Below are positions 5,693 through 51,581 of a stretch of 64,000 nucleotides of DNA, piece after piece. The stretch comes from Oscillospiraceae bacterium (lineage in GTDB: Bacteria; Bacillota; Clostridia; Lachnospirales; Lachnospiraceae). Positions within the stretch are counted from its first letter, which is position 1. Each line of letters starts with the position of its first letter. The stretch spans positions 186,001 to 250,000 of the forward strand of contig JAETOO010000001.1 in assembly GCA_021771715.1 (NCBI GenBank). Direction: 5' to 3'. Made by a program: the position numbers and the translations under genes. The notes under the pieces are model-generated. The model was not told the DNA's origin, searched no databases, and was given only the letters and a program-made list of their open reading frames with translations.

Positions 5693-5741
5693 GGCCTTCC
5701 AGTGTTTCCACAGAAATACATGTTAAATGTAGATTTCGCTC

Positions 5742-5770
5742 TTGTGTATTTGCGCTTTTTGTATTAAAAT
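5742..5770 (+). promoter_or_regulatory. Promoter of the ferredoxin gene
   Basis: TTGTGT (5742-5747) and TAAAAT (5765-5770) are 17 bp apart, followed by a short AT-rich leader and AGGAGG before the ATG at 5827. Confidence 0.5.
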
Positions 5771-5826
5771 AGGTGAAAGATTTCAAATGAAATCTAAATA
5801 CGTAAAATATAAGGAGGAATACGATC

Positions 5827-26024: not shown

Positions 26025-27425
26025 TCAGTGATCCTCCGCCGGCCTCCATCTGCCGCTCGCGTAGTGGATCGCGAAGAGCACGAACAGCAGCATATTGTGG
26101 GCGATCATGCAGCCCCACGCCGAGACGAGGCCACCCCCCGCCAGGCGGATGCAGACAAACGTGCCGGCAATGCGCGCGCACCACATGCCGAGGATGTTGT
26201 AGACGAACGGCGCCACGGTCCTGCCGACGCCCTGCATGAGCCCCTCGATCACGATCGGCACGCCGTAGAACGGCTCCGAGACCGCCACCATCCGAAGCAC
26301 CGTCGTCCCCAGGTGAATTACCTCGGGATCGCCGGAGAAAATCTGCATCAGCTGCGGCGCAAACACAAACAGCAGGCCGCCGGAGCAGATCATCAGTCCC
26401 ACCTCGAGCGGCAGGATCGTCCGCGCCAGCTGCCGCAGCTTCCGCTCATCGCGCGCGCCCCAGGCATTCCCCGCCAGCGTGGCCGCCGCGGTCTGCATGC
26501 CGTAGCCGGGGATGTAGAACGCCGACTCCACCGTATTCGCGATCGTGTGCGCCGCCGTCGACACCTCCCCGAGCGAATTGATCATGGAGGCAAAGACCAC
26601 ATAGCCCAAGGACGTCCCAAAGCGCTGCAGCATGTTCGGAAACGCGACGCGCAGACACGGCCGCAGCACGCTCCAGTCCGGCCGGAACTGCTGTCCGCGC
26701 GGCGACACCTCCGCATGGCGCCAGAGCCTGCCTGTGATCGCCACGCCGCCGTACAGATACGACACCGCGCTCGCCGCGGCCGCTCCCTCGATCCCCCAGC
26801 CTGCGCCCGGAATCGTCAGCGAGAGACCTCCGAGCGCCACGCTCCGCGTCTCGTAGATCAGGAAAAAATTCAGTACGATATTGATCAGATTGACCGAGAC
26901 CCCGACCCGCATCGGCGTCTTCGTGTCCCCCGCCGCGCGCAGCACCGTGCCAAAGATAATGCTCGCGCACCGGAACAGCATCGGCGTGTACAGGATCAGA
27001 AAATACCGCGACGCCATCCCGCGGATGCTCTCATCCACCTGCATCCAGACCGGCACACGCCCGCTCAGTCCCATCGTCAGAACCGTAAAGAAAACGCCGA
27101 CCAGCCCCGTCACCATCGCAGCTTGTCCCGCCGCGCGTTTCGCGCGCGCACGCTCCCCCGCACCGATCGCCTGCGAGATATACGCCAGGAACCCGACCCC
27201 GATCGCCGAGACCGTGCTGCCGATCAGCCAGTTCACCGTGCTCGTCGCCCCGACCGCCGCCGTGGCCTGCGTCCCGAGCGTCCCCACCATCGCCGTGTCT
27301 ATGTACTGCACCGCCGTCTGCATCAGCTGCTCCAGCATCGTCGGCCACGCCAGCGCGACAATCACCGGAAGCATCTGCAGCCTCGGATTCTCCCTCATTC
27401 GTCTTGTAAGTTCACCGTTTCTCAT
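26025..27425 (-). CDS. MATE-family multidrug/antiporter efflux protein
   Basis: A 466-residue membrane protein with about twelve hydrophobic helices in two related halves. MATE features include the N-terminal VIVALAWPTMLEQLMQTAVQ and YIDTAMVGTLG motifs, and the corresponding second-half start RVAFPNMLQRFGTSLGYVVF. These transporters export cationic drugs or metabolites against Na+ or H+. It is the last GC-rich gene before the AT-rich island and lies 48 bp downstream of the trio's third gene, on the same strand. Substrate is unknown. Confidence 0.92.
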   Translation of the reverse strand: MRNGELTRRMRENPRLQMLPVIVALAWPTMLEQLMQTAVQYIDTAMVGTLGTQATAAVGATSTVNWLIGSTVSAIGVGFLAYISQAIGAGERARAKRAAGQAAMVTGLVGVFFTVLTMGLSGRVPVWMQVDESIRGMASRYFLILYTPMLFRCASIIFGTVLRAAGDTKTPMRVGVSVNLINIVLNFFLIYETRSVALGGLSLTIPGAGWGIEGAAAASAVSYLYGGVAITGRLWRHAEVSPRGQQFRPDWSVLRPCLRVAFPNMLQRFGTSLGYVVFASMINSLGEVSTAAHTIANTVESAFYIPGYGMQTAAATLAGNAWGARDERKLRQLARTILPLEVGLMICSGGLLFVFAPQLMQIFSGDPEVIHLGTTVLRMVAVSEPFYGVPIVIEGLMQGVGRTVAPFVYNILGMWCARIAGTFVCIRLAGGGLVSAWGCMIAHNMLLFVLFAIHYASGRWRPAEDH

Positions 27426-27472: not shown

Positions 27473-28216
27473 TTATTCGCGCACAAACCTTCTGTCTAAT
27501 TCGCGCTTAATGTCCTCTCCCAAATCATCCGCTCTGTACCCGTGGTAATCTACATCCCTCTCGTTTTGAAAAGCATAATATTTGCCATTTTTCTTCGCAT
27601 ACAATCTTCCTTTGATTTTGACCGCTTTATTCAGCAATTCCTGCGCCTCATCATCATGCAAATCCATTCTGCTTCCAACCTTCCCTTTTCCGTAGGGATT
27701 TTCTCTTGAGAACTTATGCTTTTTTTCATTTGCTACATACCTTCTAACTCCCAGTTCTTTTCTGTAATAATTTATATGTTCCATCTTGGAAAGGTTTCTT
27801 ATGTATACTTCTTCCCCTGTAAAGAAACCCTTCACCACCGGTGCTTCAAACAATGCATGTGACAGTAAACTTATCAATATATTATCTATTGCATACACAC
27901 ATACCTGCGACTCTTTCTCGTCTATCAGGCATGGATTTCCCTCTTCTGAACGATAAGTCCCTTGATTTGTCAGTAAGCCAAGTAAAAATGTTCTTTCTTC
28001 TCTTGTCTGAAAACCCTGCAACAGCTGAATCAGCTTAAAATCAGGACTTATCTCTATCTGCGTATCAATCACACCTGTCTTTATTTCATCAATATTGGTC
28101 ACTTCTTCCTTTTTTACCCGCTTACACAGGTCAAGAAATTGATGCATATATTCTGTCGCAAGCTCCTTTGACGCAAATGGATATTGAAATGAAATATCAT
28201 TTATTACCGCAATCAT
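27473..28216 (-). CDS. Uncharacterised third gene of the DUF262-DUF3696 module
   Basis: A 247-residue protein starting MIAVINDISFQYPFASKELA at the ATG 28214-28216, with AGGTGAT just upstream; it lies 14 bp after the ATPase gene. I recognise no family with certainty. The N-terminal half is mixed alpha/beta (ISPDFKLIQLLQGFQTREER); the C-terminal part is basic and contains KHKFSRENPYGKGKVGSRMD followed by GRLYAKKNGKYYAFQNERDV and DYHGYRADDL, which could be a small nuclease or toxin-like domain. That is inference from the charged, His-containing end only. Tight coupling with the ATPase and the DUF262 gene suggests it is a functional part, perhaps the effector, of a defence module. Confidence 0.7.
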   Translation of the reverse strand: MIAVINDISFQYPFASKELATEYMHQFLDLCKRVKKEEVTNIDEIKTGVIDTQIEISPDFKLIQLLQGFQTREERTFLLGLLTNQGTYRSEEGNPCLIDEKESQVCVYAIDNILISLLSHALFEAPVVKGFFTGEEVYIRNLSKMEHINYYRKELGVRRYVANEKKHKFSRENPYGKGKVGSRMDLHDDEAQELLNKAVKIKGRLYAKKNGKYYAFQNERDVDYHGYRADDLGEDIKRELDRRFVRE

Positions 28217-28230
28217 TTTTATCACCTATT

Positions 28231-29328
28231 CTACAGCAACTCCAAAAGCGCATTATCCCATTCATCGAAAAATCCTTCCGGCCATTCATTTAATCTGCCA
28301 TTTTCATCCAAGACCGGGCATATCACTTTATGCTTGAAGGAATCATCTATATCTTTATAAAAATAGAAAAAACCAGTCTTTTCCGGATCCAGCCTTCTCT
28401 TTTTTACAGCAACACGGATTCCATTCAGCACATGATCACTGTGAGTTTCAACAATCACCTGAACCCCTCCCGCTCCGACAGCCGCTAACAACTCTCCCAG
28501 TATTCTTTGTCCCTTCGGATGAATATGCGCTTCCGGATTTTCAATCAAAATGATATCCCCTGACTTGGCGGATACCAAGGCAACAATTACCGGGAGTACA
28601 TAGGTAACTCCAAATCCCACATTAACACTTTTGTATGAGTTCGTTTTTTCTCTTCCTTCGATATATTCATATTTCAATTCCGCCGTTCTGGAAGACATAT
28701 TAATCGAAATCACTGGCGATACACCCGGCGAAATCATATCCAACCATGCCTTTACCTGATCCGCAATTGTCTTTTTATCTGTATTTCCGGCTAAAATTGC
28801 ATGATTTATTACCTCATCTCCACCATGCAATTTCAAATATTGTATAGCAAACTCTCCGTTTTTTGCAAAATATCTTTCAGCAACTTCTTTATCATTCTCA
28901 ATTCGATACAGAAATTGCGGTTCGATACGATACGCAGATAAATACTGCAAGCGATTTGCCCATACTACGCTCAAAGCTTTATCCGCAGCATTCTCCACGG
29001 CTTTTAAAGGTAAAACATCTGTTTCCGGCTGATATGCAAAAAAATACCGTTCTTCTGTATCCTCCGTCCGAACGCAAATCCCTATCTCATCCTTCTCAGC
29101 TTTTTCAAACAAAATATCCTGCCCAACGCCGAGATCTACATATTTACCCTTCAATGACAATACATGCTCTGACATAATACTTTTCTGAGACTGCCCCAGA
29201 AGCAGAATACTCTGCATGACTGTTGATTTTCCCATCCCATTCAGACCCGTCAAAATATTCACACCGGAAAATTCCAATCTCATTTCATCAAAACACTTAA
29301 AATTTTTAAGAGCTAATTCTTTAATCAT
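28231..29328 (-). CDS. AAA ATPase with DUF3696 C-terminus
   Basis: About 365 residues from MIKELALKNFKCFDEMRLEF; the ATG at 29326-29328 overlaps the stop codon of the DUF262 gene (ATGA) and has GAAGAGG upstream. Walker A is GLNGMGKST (about residue 26), Walker B is ILIENPEAHIHPKGQ and the switch histidine is in VIVETHSDHVLNG. The C-terminal part (YFYKDIDDSFKHKVICPVLD and NEWPEGFFDEWDNAL) matches DUF3696. Such ATPases accompany DUF262 proteins in phage defence loci. AT-rich codon use marks it as acquired. Confidence 0.88.
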   Translation of the reverse strand: MIKELALKNFKCFDEMRLEFSGVNILTGLNGMGKSTVMQSILLLGQSQKSIMSEHVLSLKGKYVDLGVGQDILFEKAEKDEIGICVRTEDTEERYFFAYQPETDVLPLKAVENAADKALSVVWANRLQYLSAYRIEPQFLYRIENDKEVAERYFAKNGEFAIQYLKLHGGDEVINHAILAGNTDKKTIADQVKAWLDMISPGVSPVISINMSSRTAELKYEYIEGREKTNSYKSVNVGFGVTYVLPVIVALVSAKSGDIILIENPEAHIHPKGQRILGELLAAVGAGGVQVIVETHSDHVLNGIRVAVKKRRLDPEKTGFFYFYKDIDDSFKHKVICPVLDENGRLNEWPEGFFDEWDNALLELL

Positions 29329-30608
29329 AAAAACCTCTTCACAAATCGCCGACATGTATTCACTCGCTTTGCAAGTGCATACTGATCACCAGATTTTAGC
29401 ACAGATATAAACTCGGTATCCGAAAGAATTTTTCCGAATTCAATTACAAATCTATCCTTGTCCTTCTTTATTTCTTCCAACTGTTCATTATCCAGTTCGC
29501 TGAAGCATATTGACCATATTTCAAAGAGCGCCTTATTAATCGGGCCACGCCGAAAATCCTGATTATACTTTCTAAAAGCATACTTTCCAAATATATCTTT
29601 GCATGCATTCATAATCCGTACAAATCGATTTGTGACGCGCGCAATATCCTTCTCATCAAAATTATTTGCTTTTTTTAAACCTTTTATCAGGAAATTGTCA
29701 ATATTTCCTTTATATTCTTTTTTATAATCCAGCTCAGTAAAAGAAACAAACCGCAATGCGTATTCACGATCCAACATTCGCTCCGGTTTTACCGCAAACT
29801 GAGTCGCCTCCTTAAACTCCGTTCGCTCTGCCAGATCTCTGATCAAATCCGTTCCTTTTCCTGAATACAAGGCCTGCCTGATCTCCTGATCATTCAGCTG
29901 AACTCCCCCGGTATTAATTCTTTGAAATATATTGAATACAACCTCATCCGGTGTCCCCTGTGTAACAGTATACGCAACAATCGAAGACTCTTTGATTCTT
30001 CTGATATATTGTCTTGGCAAACTGTCAAATGTTTTTCCATTAAAATCTGTCAGATACTGCATTCCTTTAAATACACTTTTTTTTCTGGACCCATCTTCCT
30101 GCTCATTTCCCACCAAATAGTTCTGGAATGCCGTAAGGCGCTGCAGACCATCTATTACGATCCATTCATCCTCCTTAGACGCATCGAAATAGAATGCCGG
30201 AAGCGGTATTTTCAGCATTAACGACTCAATCAGTTGACTCTGTTTTTCTTCATTCCATAGCCCGCCGTGTCTCTGAAACGCCGGAGTCAAATCAAATTCT
30301 CCATTTTCTAACCGGTCCATTATATTTGAAATGTTTGTGGGAACCTGCGTGATATTTACATCAGAAGGAATAAATTTATCCGGTTCGTCCTCGTCTGCTT
30401 TATACCCTTCATCCATATCCAAGGGAAGAATCCTTATTCCCTTTTCCCGCAGCTGATAAAGCGCTCGGTTAAGCAAATCTTCATCTACTCCTGTTTTTTT
30501 GTTCTTTATAATATCCTGAACCACAAACAAACTAATCTCATTGTCGTTTTCCTTCGCAAAATTTTCAATTTCTCTTATACGATCCGATATAGTCTGTAAA
30601 TTTTTCAT
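29325..30608 (-). CDS. DUF262-domain protein (GmrS/ParB-like fold)
   Basis: A 427-residue protein starting MKNLQTISDRIREIENFAKE. The DUF262 core carries the motifs FDLTPAFQRHGGLWNEEKQS and WIVIDGLQRLTAFQNYL (DGxQR motif), then VFNIFQRINTGGVQLNDQEI. The fold is that of ParB/Srx NTPases and of the GmrS part of modification-dependent restriction enzymes; there is no DUF1524 HNH nuclease part here. An N-terminal extension of about 90 residues with a winged-helix look precedes the core. It is the first gene of a tightly overlapping trio. The family name is confident; its role as sensor or NTPase in defence is inferred. Confidence 0.88.
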   Translation of the reverse strand: MKNLQTISDRIREIENFAKENDNEISLFVVQDIIKNKKTGVDEDLLNRALYQLREKGIRILPLDMDEGYKADEDEPDKFIPSDVNITQVPTNISNIMDRLENGEFDLTPAFQRHGGLWNEEKQSQLIESLMLKIPLPAFYFDASKEDEWIVIDGLQRLTAFQNYLVGNEQEDGSRKKSVFKGMQYLTDFNGKTFDSLPRQYIRRIKESSIVAYTVTQGTPDEVVFNIFQRINTGGVQLNDQEIRQALYSGKGTDLIRDLAERTEFKEATQFAVKPERMLDREYALRFVSFTELDYKKEYKGNIDNFLIKGLKKANNFDEKDIARVTNRFVRIMNACKDIFGKYAFRKYNQDFRRGPINKALFEIWSICFSELDNEQLEEIKKDKDRFVIEFGKILSDTEFISVLKSGDQYALAKRVNTCRRFVKRFL

Positions 30609-30724
30609 TGTCTTTTCACGCTCTGCTTTCCATCACCGTGTATTTTAGCTTTCTTTTTTATCTTACCATGAATCAAAATAGGAGACAAGCTGATATATCC
30701 CCGTTTTTCACCATAAAAGTCCAC

Positions 30725-30760
30725 AAAAGGCAAGGCCCCTCTCTTTGGCCTTGCCTCTTT
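30725..30760 (-). terminator. Rho-independent terminator behind sortase relic A
   Basis: On the minus strand AGGCAAGGCC and GGCCTTGCCT form a perfect 10-bp stem with a short loop, running into TTTTG. It directly follows the relic's stop codon, so it may be the original terminator of the pilus operon. Confidence 0.8.
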
Positions 30761-30768
30761 CCTTTCTA

Positions 30769-31134
30769 TTATCTCCGCTTCCTGGAATGAATCAGCACCC
30801 AGAGCAGCCACAGCACCAGCGTCGGCACTCCGATCGCCAGAGCCACCAGCTTCGGCTCGATCTGCTGCGCGTCGGCGGTCACGCGGATCTGCGATGCGGT
30901 TTCGAGGTTCTCGATCCGGTGGCCGCGCACCAGCAGACGGTGCGAATTGACTCCGTAGGGCGTGCACGTCACCAGCGTGCACAGATCCTTCCCCTTGATA
31001 AATTCCAGGGAGGACACGTCCTCCGGCTCCACGATCAGAATCTGATCCACCTCATACGTCAGCGTCTCGTCCAGGACGCGTATCATGAAAATGTCGCCCT
31101 CTCCACGAGCTGATCCAAATTTGTGAACAGCTTT
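30769..31134 (-). pseudogene. Sortase relic A: 3' part of a class C sortase gene
   Basis: Nearly identical, base for base, to the 3' part of the intact sortase (34824-35187). It keeps the catalytic region TLVTCTPYGVNSHRLLVRGH and the C-terminal helix down to the stop codon. A 2-base insertion near 31099 breaks the frame, and homology stops abruptly after GTGAACAGCTTT, so the N-terminal half with the catalytic His is missing. It lies between two AT-rich cargo modules. Confidence 0.9.
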
Positions 31135-31203
31135 ACGAACCTTTTATTGCAGGCAACTGATGAAATAAGACAGAAGACTCCTGTTTTTGATTTCCTGTTC
31201 TAT

Positions 31204-31407
31204 CTATGGTTTGAATACATACCCAAAGCTTTCTGCAATTTTTTTCTCATCCAGATAACTAACTGCAAAACAATCATTAGGCATATATGAACAATCATCT
31301 TCCAAATACTTAGGACAATCCTCATCTGGCTTCTCTGGTACTGTTATTTTATCAGAAATTCCCTTTATGTCTTGTTTGTTTGGAGGTATTACTCGTTTTC
31401 CTGCCAT
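31204..31407 (-). CDS. Small acidic protein, third gene of the Panacea operon
   Basis: A 67-residue protein beginning MAGKRVIPPNKQDIKGISDK, six bases after the Panacea gene. It has three Cys (DCPKYLEDDCSYMPNDCFAV), is acidic, and has no signal peptide or membrane helix. I do not recognise it. Its tight position makes it a probable part of the same transcription unit. It could be a small accessory factor or an additional antitoxin; that is a guess. Confidence 0.6.
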   Translation of the reverse strand: MAGKRVIPPNKQDIKGISDKITVPEKPDEDCPKYLEDDCSYMPNDCFAVSYLDEKKIAESFGYVFKP

Positions 31408-31413
31408 TTACCC

Positions 31414-32037
31414 TTATCCTAATTGAGAATAGTATTGCAAAATGTCATAGTTAGAAATAACGTTGGAACATGCATCGCCACTTGAAATTCCCTGCCGAGC
31501 ATTTTTCCACGGCATTTCATTATGCGAAATAGCCTCTAATTCGTCTGCTGTAAATGAACCATAGGCTTCCCAAACCTGTTGAAATAATGATTCAAGTTCT
31601 TTTTCTACAACTGGTTTAATATCTACTTTTGGTATTTCATGCCATCCATATCTCTTATATCTTTGATATAATTGCGGCGAAACCGGACCATGAATCCAAG
31701 CTTGGAAGGGCTCTGAACAGAGGACACGAATATCTCCTACATTCTCTTTTGTAATAAGTTCGACATCATTATAAAAAACAATATACCAGCAGTATGCATA
31801 ATAGCATAGTTTTTGTAACTTCTTATTCGACATTGATGACATGCTCAAAAACCATTGTGCCAAACGTTCAAGTGTTGAACCAATCTGTATATGGAAATTG
31901 GTAGTGTCATTTGTAGTTAAGTCTATATACTTCAATTTATTAACTAACGACGAAGAAGTTATGGTTGCCGTGGCTTTATATGAAGTGTCAACATATTTAC
32001 TTGGCAAAATAAAATTTATTTTAGAATTATTTTCCAT
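31414..32037 (-). CDS. Panacea-domain (DUF4065/SocA-like) antitoxin-type protein
   Basis: A 207-residue protein. From about residue 68 it follows the Panacea domain: MSNKKLQKLCYYAYCWYIVF, EPFQAWIHGPVSPQLYQRYK and FTADELEAISHNEMPWKNAR. Panacea proteins are hyperpromiscuous antitoxins of two-gene toxin-antitoxin systems (PanA/PanT) and relate to SocA. The first 65 residues (MENNSKINFILPSKYVDTSY onward) are an unusual extension. The gene starts three bases after the end of the upstream gene and is followed by a small gene six bases downstream. AT-rich codon use marks it as acquired. Confidence 0.85.
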   Translation of the reverse strand: MENNSKINFILPSKYVDTSYKATATITSSSLVNKLKYIDLTTNDTTNFHIQIGSTLERLAQWFLSMSSMSNKKLQKLCYYAYCWYIVFYNDVELITKENVGDIRVLCSEPFQAWIHGPVSPQLYQRYKRYGWHEIPKVDIKPVVEKELESLFQQVWEAYGSFTADELEAISHNEMPWKNARQGISSGDACSNVISNYDILQYYSQLG

Positions 32038-32040
32038 AAT

Positions 32041-32400
32041 TTATTCACTTTCTTTAGGAATAGGATTCCCCATTGCTTTTCGATTTTCTAACTCCTGGAT
32101 TTGATTTCCTAGCCATTCATATATAGATTTTGCATTTTCTTCACTTAATACAATACCTGTAGATATATAACGAATAACTGTATCATTAAGATTTTCTGGA
32201 TCAATGCCAACAATTCCCCCTAAAGTACCATCAAGATTAACTGAATTAGTCACTGAATTAGGTACCGGCATACGTTCCAAGAAAAAATTGGCAACTATTT
32301 CGCCCTGAGTAGAAATTCCACCAAATGCACCATTACAATACACCGGATTATAATTTTCTGGAAAAACATACTTAAATCTAATCTGACGTTCCTCACTCAT
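32041..32400 (-). CDS. DUF3467-like protein, first gene of the Panacea operon
   Basis: About 119 residues starting MSEERQIRFKYVFPENYNPV at the ATG 32398-32400, supported by AAGGAGTC; an in-frame start at 32460 lacks such a site. The pattern (VYCNGAFGGISTQGEIVANF, then VIRYISTGIVLSEENAKSIY) recalls DUF3467 proteins, in which an R...S/T.G.V.S..A motif is followed by a final helix. No toxin motif is visible. By analogy with Panacea systems, in which the partner gene encodes the toxin, it is a toxin or accessory candidate; this is inference. Confidence 0.62.
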   Translation of the reverse strand: MSEERQIRFKYVFPENYNPVYCNGAFGGISTQGEIVANFFLERMPVPNSVTNSVNLDGTLGGIVGIDPENLNDTVIRYISTGIVLSEENAKSIYEWLGNQIQELENRKAMGNPIPKESE

Positions 32401-32431
32401 TTTTAAGACTCCTTTATAATTTACGCAAAAG

Positions 32432-32460
32432 TTTTTATATATAGTATATCGCATTTTCAA
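32432..32460 (-). promoter_or_regulatory. Probable promoter of the Panacea operon
   Basis: On the minus strand TTGAAA (32455-32460) and TAAAAA (32432-32437) are 17 bp apart, about 30 bp before the start codon. The -10 is weak. Confidence 0.4.
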
Positions 32461-32528
32461 TAAAAATCTATGAATTTTTTATTCCTGATACTTTGATACT
32501 TTGTGTTAAAAAACTTTCAGCCCAGAAA

Positions 32529-32540
32529 GAACAAATGTTC
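32529..32540. promoter_or_regulatory. LexA-type box GAACAAATGTTC upstream of the Panacea operon
   Basis: GAAC-N4-GTTC with AT-rich centre matches the core of the Gram-positive SOS box. It lies about 70 bp upstream of the likely -35, which is far for direct repression. Confidence 0.35.
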
Positions 32541-32628
32541 TTTTCCCTATTTTACTTCATATTTTTATCTATGTCAATCATCATTCGCAACTAAAATAAA
32601 AAATGCTTCTTTTCCTCGCATTATTTTC

Positions 32629-32828
32629 CTAGAATGAATCAGCACCCAAAGCAGTCACAGCGCCAGAGTCGGCACTCTGAGTGCCAGGGCCACCAGCTTC
32701 GGCTCGATCTGCTGCGCGTCAGCGGTCACGCGGATCTACTCCCCTTGACAAATTTAGCTGATCCAGATCTGTGAACAGCTTCGCCGTGGCGGATCGCAGC
32801 TATACCTTGATGGCAAGGGGATCGCGAA
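32629..32828 (-). pseudogene. Sortase relic B: internally deleted class C sortase fragment
   Basis: Aligns with the intact sortase in blocks: the C-terminal codons (plus strand GAATGAATCAGCACCC), the block ending GCGGATCT, a short CCCCTTGACAAATT block, AGCTGATCCAGAT...GTGAACAGCTT, and a further block resembling CACCTTGATGGAGGGGATC. At least three deletions separate the blocks, so it is non-functional. It is more diverged than relic A. Confidence 0.82.
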
Positions 32829-32831
32829 ACA

Positions 32832-33269
32832 TCAACAGACGTTATGATGAAAAGCTATAATTACTTTTGGAGCATAGTTTTTACTCATCTGAATTACTTC
32901 ACTATTACTCAATATAATATCATTATTATTAATAAATTTTATTTTAGACAGCGAAACCAGACAACTCTGGTTACATTTCACAAATCCGTAATGAGACAAT
33001 TCTTTTAATTCATTATTAAGAGATCCGTATTTTTTTATATCTCCATGAGCGGTATGGACAATAATATGATGTCCCTTAATTTTCAAATAATAAATATCAT
33101 TCATTCGAATTCGTATGGAAGTGGTTTTTGTCCTGCATGTATATTCTTGCTGCAAGTTTTCATAAAAATGTATTGCTTCTTCTAATCCCTCTATTCCATA
33201 TTTTGTTAAGAAATTTGATATCAGAACCTCCAATGCTTTATTATCGGAAAGCTCTTTAAGCCAGTTCAC
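32832..33269 (-). CDS. LytTR-type DNA-binding protein
   Basis: A 145-residue protein with a LytTR domain over roughly residues 45-140: SIRIRMNDIYYLKIKGHHII, KYGSLNNELKELSHYGFVKC and KFINNNDIILSNSEVIQMSK. The first 45 residues are a short helical region, without a response-regulator receiver domain. LytTR proteins bind direct repeats in promoters and often control bacteriocin, competence or surface genes. It is divergent from the SH3 membrane protein gene (33638) across a 370-bp AT-rich gap and is therefore a candidate regulator of it. AT-rich codon use. Confidence 0.85.
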   Translation of the reverse strand: MNWLKELSDNKALEVLISNFLTKYGIEGLEEAIHFYENLQQEYTCRTKTTSIRIRMNDIYYLKIKGHHIIVHTAHGDIKKYGSLNNELKELSHYGFVKCNQSCLVSLSKIKFINNNDIILSNSEVIQMSKNYAPKVIIAFHHNVC

Positions 33270-33562
33270 TGTTACTATTCTCCTTCCCTTTTCTCATAGA
33301 CTCTCAGAATCACTAAGCTTTATTCCACACTGTACGTCCTTGATTAACAAAGTAATTCATTCCGCACAGCCTGGATAGCCTTTTTGCTAATTCCTGTATT
33401 CATACTGTCTATCAGATATATATATTTCCATTATAAACTATGTCAGATGGAAGATCCAGAATAACCACTCATCTTTCCATGTGAAAAATGGATTATTCTG
33501 TAGATTTTTTCTAAATATGATGTAAAAATGAATGAATATGCTGTCTGGAAATGCGATAGATT

Positions 33563-33592
33563 ATGGTTAAACCATGATAATAGTTGTATAAT
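33563..33592 (+). promoter_or_regulatory. -10 element and palindrome upstream of the SH3 protein gene
   Basis: A perfect TATAAT (33587-33592) is preceded by ATGGTTAAACCAT (33563-33575), an inverted repeat with a single central base placed where an operator would overlap the -35 region. No good -35 is present, which suggests activator dependence. The rest of the gap (33270-33560) is AT-rich and has one hairpin (CAGAATAA...TTATTCTG, followed by a T run near 33505) but no gene. Confidence 0.5.
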
Positions 33593-33637
33593 TTGAAATG
33601 GATTGTGAAATTAATTTGAATATTAAGGAACTTGATT

Positions 33638-34723
33638 ATGGTTGGTATATGGATACTTTTTATTATTTGGTTGTTTGCAGCAATAGGAGCCATAATATCA
33701 TTGATCCGTCTTTTTTGGGTCAAGAGGAAACCTTCGGACAAACCTACAGAAGTTATAACAGCAATTGTGTCAATTTTGACATTACTATTTTCATGGTTTG
33801 CAATCAAGATTCCTTCCCCAGAGATATATCCTTTAGATAATGAAATTCCTAAGAATGAATCTGTTAATATTACACTCGTAGCAAATAAAGGATTGAAAAT
33901 TAAATATACCCTTGACGGAACTGATCCCAAAAGCGGAAACAATTACATAGATAGCTTTAACCTAAATCACTCCGCAACAGTTGCCGCCAGAGCAAGGTTC
34001 GTTTTATGGTGGAGCGACATTAGTAAAAGCAATTATACCATAGAAACAGCACCCTATACTTTAGATGAATCCAACGCCGGGATCTATTCTGTTGACCACT
34101 GTGAAGCAAGTCCAAGATATACATATATCAGAGATAGCGCAACAAATAATGGAAATATCATATTTGAATTGCGCAAGCATAATATTATTGAAGTAAAGGG
34201 AACCTATTCAAACGACAATTCCGAATGGGCATATGTTGAATATTGCGGAATATGTGGATGGGTCAACACAGAATTTCTTACCAAAGTTCAAATAACAGAA
34301 AATGCAGTTGTTAACAGTTTAGGTTACTATTATGTATCCACTGATTGGGCAAACATGCGGAAAAGTGCAAGTGAGCAAGCTGAAAAAGTGCAAAAGGTAT
34401 ACTATGGACAAAAGTATTATGTCGATCGTTTTCAGGAAGGTTGGGGTATCATAAAAAACTCTCCAGATGATGAGACGATTCTAGGCTATATCAGCATGGA
34501 GTGTATGAGTCTATTTCAACCCGGAATTTATAAAATAAACAGCGTTTCTGAGTCCGGATTAAATTTCCGAAGTATGCCTGACGAAGAAGATGATACTAAT
34601 ATTATTGACAAAATACCGAATGATACCGAAATCAATATTACAAAACATGAAAATGGTTGGATTGAAGCAATATATAAGGGTGTTAACGGGTGGGTAAAAA
34701 TGAAGGACATGAAATTAATTTAA
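33638..34723 (+). CDS. Membrane-anchored protein with chitobiase-type and SH3 domains
   Basis: About 361 residues from the ATG at 33638 (MVGIWILFIIWLFAAIGAII), with AAGGA eight bases upstream. Two N-terminal membrane helices (about 1-25 and 40-60) are followed by a CHB_HEX_C_1-like domain (IKYTLDGTDPKSGNNYIDSF) and then three bacterial SH3-like modules, of which two are clear (YYYVSTDWANMRKSASEQAE, GLNFRSMPDEEDDTNIIDKI). The extracellular part probably contacts the cell wall. It is the only plus-strand gene in the island, divergent from a LytTR gene. No catalytic domain is visible, so it could be a sensor, an anchor or an immunity-type protein. Confidence 0.72.
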   Translation: MVGIWILFIIWLFAAIGAIISLIRLFWVKRKPSDKPTEVITAIVSILTLLFSWFAIKIPSPEIYPLDNEIPKNESVNITLVANKGLKIKYTLDGTDPKSGNNYIDSFNLNHSATVAARARFVLWWSDISKSNYTIETAPYTLDESNAGIYSVDHCEASPRYTYIRDSATNNGNIIFELRKHNIIEVKGTYSNDNSEWAYVEYCGICGWVNTEFLTKVQITENAVVNSLGYYYVSTDWANMRKSASEQAEKVQKVYYGQKYYVDRFQEGWGIIKNSPDDETILGYISMECMSLFQPGIYKINSVSESGLNFRSMPDEEDDTNIIDKIPNDTEINITKHENGWIEAIYKGVNGWVKMKDMKLI

Positions 34724-34757
34724 CTAGTGAATTCTTTTTCCCTGGCAATAAAACAAA

Positions 34758-34797
34758 CCTCTAAACTGAGTAATTTTATCTTACATCAGTTTAGAGG
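34758..34797. terminator. Bidirectional terminator between the SH3 gene and the sortase gene
   Basis: CCTCTAAACTGA and TCAGTTTAGAGG form a perfect 12-bp stem. On the minus strand it is followed by TTTGTTTTATT, suiting the sortase operon end; it also lies 35 bp after the SH3 gene. Confidence 0.75.
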
Positions 34798-34823
34798 CAA
34801 CATTAAACTTTTCCCAGATCTGC

Positions 34824-35651
34824 TCACCTGCGCTTTCTGGAATGAATCAGCACCCAGAGCAGCCACAGCACCAGCGTCGGCACTCCGATCGCCAGCGCCA
34901 CCAGCTTCGGCTCGATCTGCTGCGCATCGGCGGTCACGCGGATCTGCGACGCGGTCTCGAGGTTCTCGATCCGGTGGCCGCGCACCAGAAGGCGGTGCGA
35001 ATTGACCCCGTAGGGCGTGCACGTCACCAGCGTGCACAGATCCTTCCCCTTGACAAATTCCAGGGAGGACACGTCCTCCGGCTCCACGATCAGAATCTGA
35101 TCCACCTCGTACGTCAGCGTCTCGTCCAGGACGCGCATCATGAAAATGTCGCCCTCCACGAGCTGATCCAGATTCGTGAACAGCTTTGCTGACGGCAGCC
35201 CGCGGTGTCCGGACACGACACAGTGCGTCCCCACGCCGCCGACCGGCAGCGCACTGCCCGGAATATGCCCGACCGCCACCTGCAGGATGGCCTCGTCCAC
35301 ACCGTGGTAGATCGGCAGCGACACCTTGATGGAGGGGATCTCGATGTAGCCCATGATTCCGGTGCCGCTGATATTCAGCACCTCCTCATACTCCTCCATC
35401 TCCTCCTCGGAAAGGTGCCAGTTTGCGCCCTCCTTCGCGAGCTTTTTGTTGTAGGCGACTGCATCCTCCCACATCTTCTCGTACAGCTTATCATCGATAT
35501 TCGCCACTGCCTCCGCGTACGACGCGATCGCCCGCGACTGGTGAAACGAGTTCCAGTAGTCACTGACCGTCGGATACAGCAGTAAGGAGATGCCTACGAG
35601 CAAAATCATAACCAGCATGATTGTAGATAAGCTTATCCTTTTCCGTCTCAT
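34824..35651 (-). CDS. Class C pilus sortase
   Basis: A 275-residue membrane protein with an N-terminal helix (about 8-30, TIMLVMILLVGISLLLYPTV) and a C-terminal helix followed by HSRKRR, the two-anchor layout of class C sortases. The catalytic residues are in order: His in THCVVSGHRGLPS, Cys in TLVTCTPYGVNSHR, Arg in RLLVRGHRI. These enzymes polymerise pilins through LPXTG cleavage and lysine isopeptide bonds. It is the last gene of the pilus operon. Two damaged copies of its 3' part lie downstream (relics A and B). Confidence 0.95.
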   Translation of the reverse strand: MRRKRISLSTIMLVMILLVGISLLLYPTVSDYWNSFHQSRAIASYAEAVANIDDKLYEKMWEDAVAYNKKLAKEGANWHLSEEEMEEYEEVLNISGTGIMGYIEIPSIKVSLPIYHGVDEAILQVAVGHIPGSALPVGGVGTHCVVSGHRGLPSAKLFTNLDQLVEGDIFMMRVLDETLTYEVDQILIVEPEDVSSLEFVKGKDLCTLVTCTPYGVNSHRLLVRGHRIENLETASQIRVTADAQQIEPKLVALAIGVPTLVLWLLWVLIHSRKRR

Positions 35652-37830: not shown

Positions 37831-40800
37831 TTAGAAGAAACCCTGCTCCTCCTTTCTTCGCTTATTTTTTATACCTATTAGAAGAGATGCGATTGCTGTC
37901 AGCAAGATCCCTCCTAAAGTATACAGTTTGGTGCCGGGGCCGCCGGTCTCGGGGAGGACGTAGGTCTGTTTGTCTGTGTTCCTAATCGTGAGTGTCGTTC
38001 CATCATCTGATGTCTCATAAGAAACATCATACTCATCCTCCGCTGGCTTTCCATCCACATAAACTTCCTTGACGGTATACACATAGTCCTGCTTATTTCC
38101 GGCAGCATCCGTATACGACTTATCCAGATCATCAATTTTCTTGCTCCAGGTCTCAGTATCTCCATCAAAGCTTAATTCGTAAGGAGAATCTTCTACTAGC
38201 TCTGGCTCCGACTCCTGACCTCCGGATGAAACTTTTTGCCGATATAAACTAAAGGTAATGACTATATCCCTATTGCCTACCGGCTTTAATTGCCCCGTGC
38301 TTGTGAACCACTGTTTATTGACTGTGATACTTGTGGTTTCCCTCACAGGAGCATTGCTCACCGTCACCTGTAAGTCTTTCTTATCGGTAGTGCCAACCTT
38401 TGTATACTGATACGAAGTCGTATAACCGGGAACCGCTATCTCCTTCACGTAATAATACAATGCGTTTTCTGCCACATCTTTTGCCGGGAGCTTTGACCAG
38501 GTGTACTTCCATCCCCTGTTCCCGTATCCAGATACAGTCTCATACTCCGGTCCCAAAGGTAACGTTGCGAGTAATTTCCTGTCTTCCGGCAAAACAGGCG
38601 CCCCGTCGCTTCCAGTCGCTCCATAATCTGTAGTCGAACTGTAAAGCTCTACCGTGACTTTACTGTCCCCGTGCTTCTCATTTCCATCTGTCCAGATTTT
38701 TTCTACCGATACGTCAGTCGTCTCCGTACATTTCCTGTTCGTAATCGTGAGTGTGCCTCCAGGCATCCCATTCTCGGAACCATATACGGTCAAATACCCC
38801 GGTATCAGGCTGAGCTCTTTGACACCGTACACATACGTAACGTGAGAACCATTCTCATCCACGCCCTCCAAAGGCAGGTTTTTCGCAGGATATGACCAAC
38901 CATTCTCAACATTGAGTGTAAATTCTTCACCGTATGGCTTCTTATCCAGAGCAGTATCCGCTCCACGATAAATGACATCTGCAGTTATTTTAAGTGATCC
39001 AGTCCCATACACTCCCTGTACTCCAACTTCGATAGTTGTGTCTTTATCCACCACAATTGAATACGATTTGTCAGGGTTTGAAAAAACGGAGTCGCCATAA
39101 CCTGAATCAGTGCTATTCCGCCAACTTCTCTCGATTGTTCCATTTCCTTCCACCGAAAACGTTATCTCAGATCCTTTTCGCACCCATAAAACACTCTTCC
39201 TACTACCGCTAGTATCAACGGTAGTAAGATTGACCTTTGCCAAATTATCCTCAATTTTTCCTGTCAATGCTGCCTGCCAAAGCTGCGCCGTTATCTCAGG
39301 CGCATCAGAAGACACATCATTCCCGTTCTCATCCCTCCACTCCTTTTTCACAGACAGTTCGGTCTCTTCCACCTCTGTATTCGTAATCGTGACTGCCTCC
39401 CCATCTGAAACAAGCTGCACAGTATAAGAAGGTATATAGTTGGACGGTGCATCAAGCTCACGGAATCCATACACATAGGTAACAAGGTTTCCATCCGCAT
39501 CTCTGCCCTCCTGAGGCAACTGCTCTATTACTGCCTGCCAGGAAGTGTCAGTATTCCCAGAGATGGGGTATGGATCTCCGTATGGAACCATATTCGCTGA
39601 AACACCCACAGCTATTTCTTTGCTGTCTGGTTTAGCACCATTAGCATTACAGTTAAGCTTACAATCTCCCGTTACCATAATTCTCCAATCGTGTGCTGTG
39701 CCAATTGGCTCAATATCAGGATTTTGCCCTGTTCCGTCATCGATGGGTTTCACCTCACTCCAATTTTTATAACGAAGTATTAATGTGCCGCCCTTTCTTA
39801 CATAGATCGTCTCCGTCGTTTTAGCATCGTACTGCAGTTCAACCCTTGCATAATTTTCCGTAAAGCTGCCCGGAAGCGTCTCACACATCAGCTGCACTCG
39901 TATTGGGCCCTTGTCCTTTGAAGCATCCGCTCCATTACTGTCCAGCCATTTTTTGTTCAACGTTACCTGCATTTTCCGCATCTTCGTGTTGGTAATCGTT
40001 ACCGTTCCGCCGACTGCGCCTTGTTCCGCGCTGGTAGAAGCTATATACCCTTCCGGAACCTCGAGCTCCCGGAAGCCGTATACGTAGGTAACCACATTGC
40101 CGTCATCATCTACTCCTTCCTGAGGTAACTTTGAAATCGTAATCTGCCAGTCCTCACTCGCTGGAATTGTGTATGGCGCTTTATACTCCTTCATCGTCAT
40201 GTCCGAAGTATTCCAGGATGTCCCTTTCACCACCTCAACCGCAACACCCGCATTAGGATTAAAATCATACTGTATCGTTGCATTATCTGACACTGTATAT
40301 CGATGTCTATGACCTGGAGGACTTGTTATAGGATCAAGGGTTTCTCCTGATGCATTATCCTTATATGTCGTTTGACTCCATGCGGCATTTTTTAATTGAA
40401 GTGTTATAGTCCCTCCCTTTCTCACATAGATCGTTTCATCTGTCTCAAATTTACCATTTACTTTCTTTTGCAGCTCAACCTTTGCAAAGTTTTCTTCGAA
40501 AGTACCCTGTAACACGGCCTGCATTAACTGTACTTTTACTTCGCTTTCACTGATATCTGCTGGGGACTGTTGTGTTCCATCACTATTCAGCCACTCTTTT
40601 TTCAGTGTGATCTGTGTCTCTGACATCTGCGTATTGGTGATCGTGACTGTACCGCTCACTGCTCCCTGCTTTGCACTGCAGGAGGTTTTATACCCTTCCG
40701 GTACATTGAATTCCTCAAACCCATACACATAAGTGACGACATTTCCATTCCCATCTACGCCTTCCTTTGGAAGATCAACAAATTCTTCCTTCCAATCTTC

Positions 40801-43800
40801 GCTTTTCAAAGTCGTCTGCTTCTGAACCGTCTTATTGGCCAGATCAGCGGTGTCCCAGGTTACCTTTATTTCCGGCTCAACCGGTACCTGATTTTTATGA
40901 GAATCATAATTAATTACTGCATCATCAGATACTATATACTCATATTTTTGATCCACCTTATCCGACGATACACCATTATAAGTTACTCTGCTCCATTCAG
41001 CATCTTTAAACTGAAATGTTATTTTTCCTCCCTTTCTAATGTAGATAACTTCCTTATCCACATCTTTTTCCTGCAACCGGATCTTTGCAAAGTTCTCCTC
41101 GAAGCTGCCCGACAGTTCTGCACGCCACATTTGAACATCAATGCTTTCAACTGGCGCAGTACTGCTTCCATCTCTGTTCACCCACTTCTTTTCCACCTCA
41201 ATCTGCGTCTTATCGATCACCTGATTGTCGAGCCGGATGGTTCCTCCCAGAGTGCCGTTTCCGCTGATTACCGGCTTGTAGCCATCGGGCACGGAGGTCT
41301 CCTTTATGTAGTAATACCACAGCTGACCATCATCGTCTTTCCACGGCAGCTTGTTCCAGGTATAGCTCCAGCCCGTCGTATCATAGCCCTCGTGCCCTGC
41401 CATTGCTGCGCCAAGCTCCACTTCTGCCTCATATTTGTTTGCATCCGTCAGCTCTGCCAGCTTTGTCGCAGCGCTGTGCGTGCGATAGAGCTGCACTTTT
41501 ACGGAAGGAACATCTTTCAGGTTTGTAATCTCTGTACCGTCTGCGTTGAGCCACTTTTTCGATACTTTGATGAAGGTATCGTCCAGCACATTGGCTACTG
41601 TGACCTTTTCGCTATCCACAGTACCCTCCTGTACCGAAAGATCCGTTCCCTTTGTTCCGTTCTGGAAATACAGGGCATCGTATATTCTTTCTTCTCCTTC
41701 ATCGGTTTCCTCTACCACGTAATAGAAGTACTCCTCTCCGCTGACCTCATCCGCTACGGGAAGCTCCTTCCATGTTCCCTTCCACTCCTTTGCCGCTGAG
41801 ACGAGAATCGTACCGGCATCATAGTCACGATACCTCGCTTTCAGGACGCCATTTACTATGCCGTCTTCAAAGCAGTCCTTCCGCGCATTTGAGGGCAGCT
41901 TCGCAATATCCGTCGTCGTTCCGTACAGATGAAGCGTAATCACCGCCTTATCCAGGCCCCATGCCTTAAGCTCTGCATCTGAAAGGCTGGGCGCATTCTC
42001 CTCACCGGACGTCGTCCATTTTTTCTCGATCTTTACATTCGTGATGTCTCTTGTATTCGTAATCGTCACTATATTGCCAAGCGACGCCGATACCTTAGAG
42101 GGATCCGTATATGTGTTGCCTCCGTAGCTATACTCTACCTTGTATCCTGCTACCGAGGTCTTCTCCTGCACATAATACCGCACGTCCTCGTCCTTATCTA
42201 ATCCCTTCACATGAGCGATCCAGTCGTCCTCTGCGCTCAGCTCGACCGTTTTCACCAGCTGATCCTCCGTGTCAGCCGCAGTTGACTTCTTCCAGATTTC
42301 CACCTCTATTTTCTTCAGCGTAGTCGGAATACCCTGATCCTCCCAGACTTTCCGGACAGTCAGTTCATCCTTAGCTGTGACCCAAGTGTTGGTGACGATT
42401 ATCTGACCCTGCTGTATCCCGGACGTATTTGAATAGTCCACGATGCAGGATGCATTATCTCCTTCCTCCTTTACAATATAACAGCACTCTTTTTGATCCT
42501 CCGTCGTCGAGGGCAATTTCCCCCACGAATAGGACCACTTGAGGCTTCCATCTTCCTGCACTATCGGAAGAGTTACCGGATTCGTGATTGCTTTACCGTC
42601 TACCTCTCTCACCAGATCATCCGTAGTTTTGATCCGGGGCTCTTTGCCTGAGAACACCAGATCCTCTTCAGCCGGTATCCTGTCCGCTGTAATTGTGACA
42701 GAACACTCATCTCCCTTGATGTTGCTCACGGAACATACGCCTGCACCCGTCTCATGACCATACACCGCAGTCGGCACGGACAGTCTGGCATCACAATTTA
42801 CTGCATCCACCGTAAAGCTCTGCACATTGCTCAGCTGATAAGACCCAAATGTAAACGACATATCCGTGTCCCTTGCTATCTGATATGTCACCTCTCGCGG
42901 CGCTCCGCTGAGATTGTTGCGATTCTTTATGGTCACATGCACCGTCACCGTATTCTCCGGATCCGCCTCTTTTGTTCTGAGGTAAAGTCCGATCTTTACT
43001 TGCTTTCCTTCAATCTTTTCAGGAGCGATCTGACTTCCGGCCTCGTCGACCCATGCCTTCCTGACACCGACTCCTTCGTACTCATTCGGCACAAAAAGTT
43101 CTCCACTCCCAGGCCGCAGGAAATGGATTTCTTCTTTTTTAATCTCCTTCCCATCGTACTTGAAAAAGTCAGTTCCAAGAGTCGTCCATACATCGTCTGC
43201 TTTTTCAACAATTCCTGTGGCTTCGTTCACCTGCAGGCACATGAAATAGTATGCCTTTCCAGATTTCACATACCCTTCCGGAGGAGACACCTCAGTCAGC
43301 CGGTATAAGGCGTTTGGATGCAATACCGCATTAATGCTGCCATCCTCCGCGTCAGCCTGATTAAACTCAATTTTTCCCTCTGCTGTGGTCTTATATCTGT
43401 CTATCTCTTTCCATTTTTCGTTCTTCGTTTCATCTCCATTCTTTGTCTGTATCCGTTCCTCAAGCTTAAATTTGGCGCCAGGCAATCGTGTAGAATAATC
43501 CTTGCCGTCAACCTTATAGACCGTCACTTTTTCCTTCGAAACATTTGCCCAGGAAGAGCTGGTCTTGATACTCGTATTTGTCTGATGCTTATACATACCA
43601 GACAGCGATACATCATTCGACAGGTTTACGGTTTTTTCGCTCCCGTCTCCGGCAATCCGGTATTTGTATACGAGAACGCAGGCAAGCTTATCCGGAATCG
43701 TCAGCGTCAATACATATTTTTTCTGACCATTCTCCACCTGTTCTTCATACGATATCTGATACTGGCTCTTGTCGATCTCCGCTCCACAATTATCCGGCTC

Positions 43801-46800
43801 CTTACTGTCATATTGGCACAGCTTCAATTCATCGAGCAAAAGCTGTGCATCCAGCACACCTCCTGTCAATGTGTCCGTCAGTGTCAGTGTGTCATGATAC
43901 GGATCCAGATCCGAACCTGCCGGATTAATAGTAACCGTATATTTGACATCGTTTGAAATAATTGCTTTTTGATCCGTCCAATCATAGGGATTTCCGTTAC
44001 TGTCAAGCTGGGTCCCGACCTTCCTAAGCTTCTCTACGGTGCGCTCCACGTCGGTCTTTCTGCTGTCTTCCTTGGTGCCCCATACCGCATGGTTGGTATA
44101 CGTCTTCTTCTCCGTATCCTGCCCCTGCCATACCGGGTCGTCTTTCACTGATACACGGTATTCTATTGCAAGAACTCTTCCGTTTCCGTCCGTAACGCCA
44201 TCATTATAGCCGCCCAGAATTGTCAGAATGAGTTTCTTCTTCGTGGTTCCATCCTCTGATGGGTCCTCTTCAACTCTACCTACCACCTTCTGAGCACCAT
44301 CAAAATTATAATCTCCTATGCTTGTATAATACCACCACTCATTCCCCTGGAAAGAACCATGCGCAGAGCCTTCCACATACTCCATGTTGGCATCCAGATA
44401 ATCTACTACTTCAATTTTATCATTCTCATTCGCATCCGTACGAAGCAGCAGCCTGTAATAAAGGATGCCGCCTGACGCCGTCCAATCCACCGCTACGTCG
44501 CTGTCATAATAGGTAAGATTTCCGTTCTGCATCACGCCTGCCTGCTTTGAGAACGTCTTCGGAACCTTATGATCGTTGTGCGCCGTTTTCCATTCGCTCT
44601 GCGGGATCTTGCCGTCATTTGTAAACCTCCAGGTATCGCCCTCCTTCATATTCTTATACTCTACTCTGGTAGGATACTTGAATGACAGCTTCTTCCCTAC
44701 AAATGTCACTCCATCCTTCGGTTTTACATTGACTTTGAAGCTCGTTACCGGCGTAGAAGAATCACCTTTAACTTCATTTCCCTCCGCATCGTAGCATGTG
44801 ATACTAAATTCCACTGTATCATTCACATATCCGACAGTTGAATCATCAGTTGAATCATCAGCGCCGGTCAACTCAAGTGAACTGCGTATCGCCTCCGCTA
44901 CCTCGCTTGCAATGGCATAGTGATTTTTCCCGCTGGCCGTGCCGTCCGCGTCCTTGATCACATCCTCATACGTGAACTCCGTCAGATTGCTGTCCGGCAA
45001 AGTAACCTCTGTGCGCCATGTGTAACGGGTGATCCCTTCTTCCGTCTTTTCAGAGTCAAACCATTTCTGCAGATCCCATTTTCGATGAGATACATTGACG
45101 CCCGTTCCTGACTCATAGGTGCCCTCACCCTGCTTGCCAAGATCTGCCTTATTCGCGACATTGCCGTCATTTTCGGGCGCACTCGTTTTAAATGTGACCA
45201 CATAAGTTTTGCAGGAGTTTTTCCCAAATGTATACTCTATTTCGTTTTTTCCATTGAAATCTACTTTATCTACTGGATTGCCGTCACTGTCTTTGATCAC
45301 CACATCGCCTTTGACCACCAGATCTCCCGGAAGCTTATCATGCAGCTTATATCCTTCAATGTCTTTTCCATCTTCATTATTTACCGTGATCTTCCACACC
45401 ATCTCATTTTTATTGGCGTCATACCAGCCTTCCTTCTTGATCATGGCCTTGGAGATTTCCACGCTGTCAGAATCCCAGTCTGTTTTTCCCTGATCCGAAG
45501 CGCTGGCGGAATTGCCAACGGTGCCGGATCCGTCCTGATTCTTGCCGGAAAGCTCGACATCCGCAGAATAATCCACGACATATTTCTCCCCCGGCTGCAG
45601 CTCATCCAGATCACTGATGACAAAATACGCTTTCCCGTCTGCATTTACAGCTTGCTCCAGCTGATACTTGTCTGATGCCACGAGTGCCTTATTCGTGCTG
45701 TTTGCTGCCACTTTGTATACTTTAATGCTGTCTTTGATATATGTCTCCGTCGTAGACGTGCCCTTAAACTCGTCCCGGACCGTCACCTTTCCATCCGTTC
45801 CCAGTGTGGTGGATACTGTCAGCTCATAGTCTATCTTGGTCTTCCCGTTTTGGGGGGTCCCCTTGTTTACTACAGTTTTCTCTATCTGGATATCCGAGGT
45901 TTCCTTATTTTTAATGACCGTAATTGTGCTGCCACCACCGCCGAACTCGATCTTTTCTTCGTCTGACGTGCCGGACATAGACAGTGTTCCCTCAAAATAA
46001 ATGGAACCCTTAAAGCTGTCGCCGTTCGCAAAGTCATCATTGAAAACAATACTGATCAAACCGTCTGTACCGATTTCATACGTACCGACAGCTTCACCCA
46101 TGTTATAAACGATACCTCGCTCTACCTTATTGGGACGTACACCGTTTGGCAGTCTATAAGTAATCTTTTTATTTGTGCTGTTTACCGTTCCCTTCGGCAG
46201 ATTATAATCAATCTTTACTCTTACCTGATCCCCGTCCGTAAACTGATCGCTTACCTGCCATTCGCCATTTACCTTTTTAGAAATCGTTGCGCTGGTCACA
46301 TACCTGCTGAAATCAGTTCCCTGATCGACTGACGCCGCCTGTTCTTCTGCCTGCTCTCCATCCAATGTCAGCGTAACCGCCCGCGCACGAGCCATCCGCC
46401 TGCGTCCGGAAACAGACGAAGTCTCTGTATGAAGCTCAGACTTTTCCACAACGCACCAGCTGCTGCCATTCTTATAAATATCTGAATCCACTACAGCCTC
46501 TGTCTCGGTCTCGGATTCCGTCTCTGTCTCCTTCTCAGTCTCAGTTTCAGTCTCAGTCTCAGATTCCGTCTCTGTCTCACTCTCGGATTCAGATTCCGCC
46601 TCTGTAATCAACTCGGTCTCCGACTCCGATTCTATTTCCGTCTCGGACTCAGATTCGCTCTCTGTCTCAGACTCTGCGGCCGTGTCACCCTTCATTCCGA
46701 TCACACCTTCCGCAGTCTGCTCTGACATGTTCTCGGTCTCGGTCTCGGACTCTTCCTCCGTACCCTGCTCAGTTTCTGTCTCAGATCCGGATTCCACCTC

Positions 46801-51236: not shown

Positions 51237-51581
51237 ACAGTTCAGCCCGCCACCCTCAAAGAAGAATGCAAGGCCACCGAAACACGACTATCGCGAGTCT
51301 TTACAAGCCCGCCACCGTCAGAGAAGAATGCAGGGCCGCCGGAACGCGACTATCGCGAGTCTTTACAAGCACTTAGGTCTCAGAAGGCCGGAGCATCTGT
51401 AAAAATTCTGCCTTCCGGCAGAATTTTTAGCCGGCACTGTCCGAGCAAAATGTGCATCAAGCACATTTTGTGAGTTGCCGGCGGCAGATGCGCAGACCTT
51501 CTGAGACCTTAGTGCTTGTAGACGAGCGATTCGGAGCGTTCCGGCGGCCCTGCATTCTTCTCGTCCGCGTTGCCAAAACTC
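51234..51581. repeat. MITE-like palindromic element, copy 2
   Basis: Starts with GTCACAGTTCAGCC (one mismatch to copy 1). A 61-bp unit is tandemly duplicated (51248-51308 and 51309-51369). Arms at 51321-51388 and 51497-51562 are long inverted repeats of each other (GAGAAGAATGCAGGGCCGCC against its complement). Two perfect inner hairpins lie at about 51401-51429 (AAAATTCTGCC/GGCAGAATTTT) and 51446-51471. No coding function is visible. The right terminal repeat is diverged. Confidence 0.8.

Follow-up and report, generated by a model that had tools for sequence, protein, structure and literature searches.

Cargo modules and sortase-gene remnants in an apparently strain-variable interval between a pilus-operon sortase gene and a MATE-type transporter gene

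Some genomic islands re-supply the 3' end of the protein gene that they enter, as prophage e14 does in icd. Displaced 3' ends of the target gene then lie beside the island.

One precedent is the group of integrase-poor hotspots that are maintained by recombination at flanking genes. As described in the passages of PMC5635113 that bear on this, variable cargo lies between fixed neighbours, there is no recombinase gene, and homology of the flanks suffices. Further examples are the core defence hotspots cDHS1 and cDHS2 of Pseudomonas aeruginosa and the defence hotspots of E. coli, where, in the relevant parts of PMC10250203 and PMC10121019, differing defence systems occupy one position across strains and the cargo is of lower GC content.

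The window, the whole stretch of 64,000 nucleotides of DNA that was analysed, contains an interval between the sortase gene at the end of a pilus operon and the gene for a MATE-type transporter. As in the recombination-maintained hotspots, cargo varies between fixed neighbours, and no integrase or mobility gene was found by a PF00589 search of the window and by Pfam on the cargo. There are two differences from the hotspots as presented in those passages of PMC5635113: one flank is repeated inside the site, with its remnants separating the modules, and the neighbours are not conserved beyond close strains. The likeness to the P. aeruginosa and E. coli hotspots lies in the differing systems at one position and in the lower GC content, whereas the parts of PMC10250203 and PMC10121019 that concern them present no sortase or pilus landmark, and the present site is represented by two sequences only. 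Such an arrangement was not found in the open-access literature, among the matches listed.

The initial annotation described an alternation of cargo genes and sortase pieces, and this layout was confirmed, with the cargo genes and the intact sortase gene at the places given there. A comparison of the region with itself, proposed in the same annotation as a way to fix the breakpoints, yielded three minus-strand sortase-like stretches and their limits: the intact gene, relic A, and relic B. The intact gene (34824-35651, minus strand) is the last of the pilus operon and encodes a class C sortase (NCBIfam class_C_sortase, 278.7 bits, cut-off 160). It is followed by a hairpin (34757-34798, minus strand; fold -23.7 kcal/mol, z -3.75) that also lies downstream of a convergent cargo gene, which encodes a 363-residue SH3_3/chitobiase C-terminal-domain protein (33632-34723, plus strand; Pfam). 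The next cargo gene encodes a LytTR DNA-binding protein of 145 residues (32832-33269, minus strand; Pfam), and its end lies only a few bases off relic B (32626-32827, minus strand).

Beyond relic B, three minus-strand cargo genes encode a DUF3467-like protein of 139 residues (32041-32460; Pfam E 1.9e-4, below the cut-off), a SocA_Panacea antitoxin-like protein of 207 residues (31414-32037; Pfam 47.1 bits, cut-off 25.7, with NCBIfam SocA_antitoxin below its cut-off), and a 67-residue protein without a Pfam or PADLOC match (31204-31407). Relic A (30769-31134, minus strand) is a sortase 3' end with a frameshift near its 5' side. As had been claimed, it ends at the sortase stop codon (30769-30771), which is retained, and is followed by a strong hairpin (30725-30759, minus strand; fold -24.8 kcal/mol, z -4.43). 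The last cargo group is a minus-strand trio (27473-30608) in which PADLOC finds NsnA (DUF262/GmrSD_N; 29325-30608, E 3.7e-120), NsnB (AAA_15, DUF3696; 28231-29355, E 1.8e-109), and NsnC (27473-28225, E 1.2e-140); we take these three names to denote Menshen. The MATE-type transporter gene (26025-27425, minus strand), named by reading its protein, forms the left landmark.

The cargo has a GC content of about 0.30-0.43, against about 0.65 for the MATE gene and 0.59 for the sortase gene. The backbone pilin gene is likewise AT-rich (GC 0.38-0.41). Upstream of this pilin gene lies a single surface-protein-like open reading frame of 3385 residues (37831-47988) with long Glu/Thr-rich stretches, and upstream of the pilus operon there are nested inverted repeats (51321-51562; 27 nt at 100% and 36 nt at 89%).

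A second sequence at strain level is provided by L008, a contig of 6651 nt filed under a [Clostridium] symbiosum MAG. Its sortase gene is 95.1% identical to that of the window over 816 nt, and its MATE gene 97.4% identical over 610 nt. The cargo between these two genes is wholly different from that of the window. One of its genes encodes a 510-residue DACNH-DAC protein, which NCBIfam DS2_3_antiphage matches with E 9.3e-41 but at 139.8 bits where the cut-off is 630, and the other a 948-residue protein without a family match. This two-gene cargo (L008, 1250-5615) is a candidate conflict system, and an HExxH-like stretch, HEVAHF, can be seen by eye in the 948-residue protein. Between the cargo and the MATE gene of L008 lies a sortase-tail remnant (5729-5798), of which 66 nt are 94% identical to the contig's own sortase gene (E 7.6e-25).

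The name under which L008 is filed may mislead. When the 8.9-kb stretch of the window to the left of, and including, the MATE gene was compared with the MAG that holds L008, 98% identity was reached over only 565 nt at one contig end, and elsewhere identity was 63-78%. Because the rest of the MAG is this distant, L008 is probably mis-binned and derived from a strain close to that of the window.

As read from these two alignable sequences (n=2), the sortase-MATE interval is a strain-variable site: the same landmarks enclose different cargo, and in both a sortase-tail remnant lies on the far side of the cargo. The alignment with related strains lacking some of the modules, which the initial annotation had suggested, thus found different cargo at the same position together with a tail remnant, in one strain rather than in several. 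Among the other species of the genus that were examined no empty site was found, and the site is seen in the two sequences only. No sortase match occurs in the stretches fetched around the MATE gene of five genus members (G003, G006, G007, G018, and G029, the last of which extends less than 1 kb past the MATE gene in the direction that matters), nor does a MATE match occur in the sortase stretches of two others (G020 and G030). The two neighbours are thus not kept together in the genus members examined.

Relic A is very similar to the intact gene. Direct repeats and self-comparison align its positions 30773-31134 with 346 of 362 nucleotides identical (96%, E 5e-168). Over the last 324 nt, which align without gaps, relic A and the intact gene differ at 14 positions (12 silent codons, two changing the amino acid), relic A and the L008 gene at 13 (12 silent codons, one changed), and the intact and L008 genes at 11 (10 silent codons, one changed). 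With L027 as the outgroup, the shared-derived sites for the three possible pairings number 3, 4, and 3, which is a star. To judge from these codons, relic A was a functional gene under selection during the greater part of the time since it diverged. Since its changes are nearly all silent and its divergence is like that between strains, it looks like a recently lost allele and not like an ancient paralogue. The star pattern means that it acts as a third allele of the species rather than as a recent copy of its own chromosome's gene.

The initial annotation had offered decay of old tandem sortases, with later insertions, as the simpler alternative. For relic A this did not hold: at 96% identity with almost all differences silent, it is far closer than the tandem sortases that follow other sortases in seven related loci, and than the tandem pair elsewhere in this genome is to the window sortase; ancient tandem sortases are rejected as its source on the identity and the silent-site pattern.

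The main rival explanation, possible but somewhat unlikely, starts with a local tandem duplication of the sortase gene; cargo would then have been inserted independently between or into the spare copies, which decayed. Further sortases do occur close downstream in relatives and at the C42 locus of this genome, and the internal deletions of the relics suit redundant copies. However, relic A resembles the intact gene with which it shares a chromosome no more closely than the L008 gene does, although gene conversion could blur this comparison. Tandem sortases in relatives also show greater divergence (67-80% identity along part of the gene), and an insertion beside a sortase copy is demanded for each of the three modules and for the L008 cargo as well.

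Four collinear pieces make up relic B, which bears three internal deletions and an in-frame stop. The first piece (32626-32737) is identical to the sortase gene at 100 of 112 positions (89%; E 8e-39), with eight silent and four changed codons, one of the latter a stop. The second (32740-32754) matches at 15 of 15 positions (E 0.019), the third (32756-32784) at 26 of 29 (E 1e-5), and the fourth (32784-32827) at 37 of 45 (E 1e-5). The fourth corresponds to sortase nt 308-350, and no score as high arose in 2000 shuffles or in 1808 control stretches. By its degree of decay, relic B is older than relic A.

A probable counterpart of these extra pieces can be found in relic A. One base off its tail, 24 nt (31136-31159, minus strand) match sortase nt 191-214 at 19 positions, and all five mismatches are transitions. 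This match was equalled by 4-6 of 2000 shuffles and by 0-6 of 1808 control stretches, and relic A probably also extends 5' of its joint with more upstream sortase sequence. The scrap is more diverged than the tail (5/24 against 14/324, P 0.006); the 5' half of the gene is also more variable between the two strains (27/452 against 13/364 for the intact and L008 genes). Relic A may therefore be a hybrid, in which an older-looking 5' scrap stands beside a nearly pristine tail, stop codon, and hairpin that came with the arrival of Menshen. This reading depends on the 24-nt match, which is itself only probable.

Both relics had been described as breaking off after GTGAACAGCTT. As a joint, this point stands. 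As the end of sortase similarity, and so as the boundary of an insertion, it does not, for relic B clearly and relic A probably run on beyond it. Because sortase sequence from 5' of GTGAACAGCTT is present in relic B and probably in relic A, the breakpoint marks where a deletion joined parts of a longer sortase remnant; an insertion site at GTGAACAGCTT is ruled out by the continuing similarity. On these alignments the relics derive from longer sortase copies that lost internal stretches, a reading that is certain for relic B and probable for relic A.

An account modelled on e14 and icd would have a site-specific integrase, lost or acting in trans, insert islands inside the sortase gene, each with a replacement 3' end that displaces the old one. 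It would yield a displaced tail with stop codon and hairpin beside each module, and it fits the shared position of the joint in the two relics, near sortase nt 460. The likeness to such islands ends there: a displaced 3' end should start at the crossover core and hold nothing from 5' of it, whereas relic B does hold such sequence and relic A probably does. Nor was any Phage_integrase match found in the window, in a search for family PF00589. An integrase crossing over at GTGAACAGCTT is thus not supported, and the account as a whole is very unlikely.

Repeats can also be made or misjoined by an assembler. The draft genome has 54 contigs and the repeats lie within 8 kb of each other. Against such an artefact, which is extremely unlikely here, the copies differ and bear their own mutations, with a longest exact match of 59 nt between the intact gene and relic A, 29 nt between the intact gene and relic B, and 32 nt between the relics, and a second assembly, that of L008, shows the same kind of remnant.

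The best explanation, for which the chances are judged to be about even, is that the sortase-MATE interval took up several defence or conflict modules, and that homologous recombination, with its anchors in the sortase and MATE genes, exchanges them. The process would start with DNA from another strain that carries a sortase allele, its own terminator, and cargo. On one side this DNA would recombine with the resident sortase gene or a sortase remnant, through the insertion of a single circle or through unequal crossing-over; on the other it would recombine with the MATE gene or a remnant. Each event would leave a second sortase copy, which would later decay by deletions between short repeats. 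Such remnants would supply further homology, so that modules could stack and be swapped.

What is special about the site is that one of its anchors, the sortase, is duplicated within it. A more specific proposal, which we regard as unlikely, is that the sortase tail serves as a portable homology arm, so that units of tail, terminator, and cargo could enter at any copy or remnant and stack without a dedicated recombinase.

The idea that the 3' end of the pilus operon is a repeated insertion point, acting through recombination between sortase copies, is therefore upheld as to variable cargo at the site, through the one L008 sequence; with recombination itself the data are consistent. Two features make the history less simple. 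The more decayed relic B lies nearer the intact gene than relic A does, so that a plain series of additions at the active gene does not account for it; this order requires an extra step, in which exchange took place at an inner remnant and perhaps brought in Menshen with a fresh tail and terminator. Nor does the exchange model explain why the two relics share a joint position near sortase nt 460, beyond the short repeats GCG and GCGAAG, which were spotted by eye at the joints in the alignment.

If the sortase remnants are homology arms, the locus can be read as a history of successive exchanges and suggests a way in which defence modules may stack without a recombinase. If they are not, it still represents turnover of defence genes between strains beside a surface-pilus operon, probably in gut Lachnospiraceae as the names of related records suggest.

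The 3' ends of the copies differ. Strong hairpins follow the intact gene (z -3.75), relic A (z -4.4), the L008 gene (z -4.2), and the L008 remnant (z -5.2), and no strong hairpin follows relic B (z -0.2). A simple terminator scan gave five sites where 6.1 were expected, no excess over shuffles, and these hairpins are absent from its list; that after relic A was missed because its loop is longer than the scan permits. Among the 150-nt flanks 3' of the copies, 15 pairs showed no clear relation (lowest shuffle counts 5, 8, and 13 of 200). Unrelated flanks and separate hairpins fit an arrival of each tail together with the DNA that follows it, or insertions that are tolerated only after the stop codon.

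How general the arrangement is was examined in 81 sortase loci, the window and 80 that were fetched, of which 70 extend at least 1 kb and 57 at least 5 kb downstream. Near-identical sortase-tail remnants occur only in the window and L008. In seven related loci (L031, L039, L063, L071, L073, L074, and L085) a diverged sortase match follows within 0.3-3 kb; these are tandem sortases, with 67-80% identity along part of the gene. When the window's own genome was searched, no further near-identical copy appeared; the other four sortase matches are 68-73% identical at the DNA level, and a tandem pair elsewhere in the genome is 45 and 50% identical to the window sortase as protein.

In the loci sampled, defence genes are not enriched near sortase stop codons. 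The sample comprised 21 of the 43 loci that reach 9 kb or more downstream, the window and L008 being set aside. PADLOC at E<=1e-15 matched five families among 77 near reading frames (of 158) and eight among 77 far ones (of 160), each family in one frame, so that near and far look alike; two very long far frames (L043:7734-13466 and L048:7183-11175) are excluded from the count. Reading of the translations at two further pilus loci in this genome found no defence genes directly 3' of the sortase gene. A general hotspot at the 3' ends of pilus operons, as first suspected, is thus not supported by these low and similar counts and by tail remnants in two of 81 loci.

The exact sortase-tail pattern had no match in viral contigs, and the sortase protein had one relative there at 45%. 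Three sortase loci from one MAG (L010, L011, and L014; Lapin-002 bin83) lie on contigs that stop 447-475 nt past the sortase match. Their sortase regions are 87-95% identical, with the last 270-odd nt at 98-99% where aligned apart, and their pilins have diverged; they may represent repeated pilus operons or mixed strains.

Menshen has been named as a DUF262 system, in the part of PMC10952713 that concerns it. All three components that PADLOC expects stand in a row in the window and no difference is apparent by sequence. In a survey of 298 further genomes from the family, with E<=0.001 as the threshold and only the two best candidates scored per genome, DNA of the Menshen trio is found in 18 (short matches only in nine), of the Panacea module in 11 and of the LytTR/SH3 pair in six (all short, at most 63 nt), and of the L008 cargo in 10 (long in two). 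The distribution of the cargo across the family is patchy. Pfam assigns none of the eight cargo proteins of the window, nor the two of L008, to a mobility family. In G020, of the same genus, a Panacea-domain gene (L013:13863-14234) lies about 3 kb past the sortase gene, beyond a SpaA pilin gene and an AT-rich open reading frame of 221 residues.

The Phage_integrase search covered PF00589 only, with serine integrases and transposases outside it; it found no match in the window and 10 in the window's genome (G000), the nearest (C31:295442) about 74 kb from the window's sortase gene. In this genome, three further pilus loci carry a Phage_integrase gene some 9-13 kb away from the sortase gene; the stretches concerned are L177 (7073-7372), L178 (7166-7478), and L179 (4636-4964), located at C31 near 295 kb and 475 kb and at C42 near 181 kb. 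Near each of these integrase genes is a pair of inverted repeats with 229-273 nt between the arms, an arrangement that resembles phase-variable promoters, each served by an invertase of its own.
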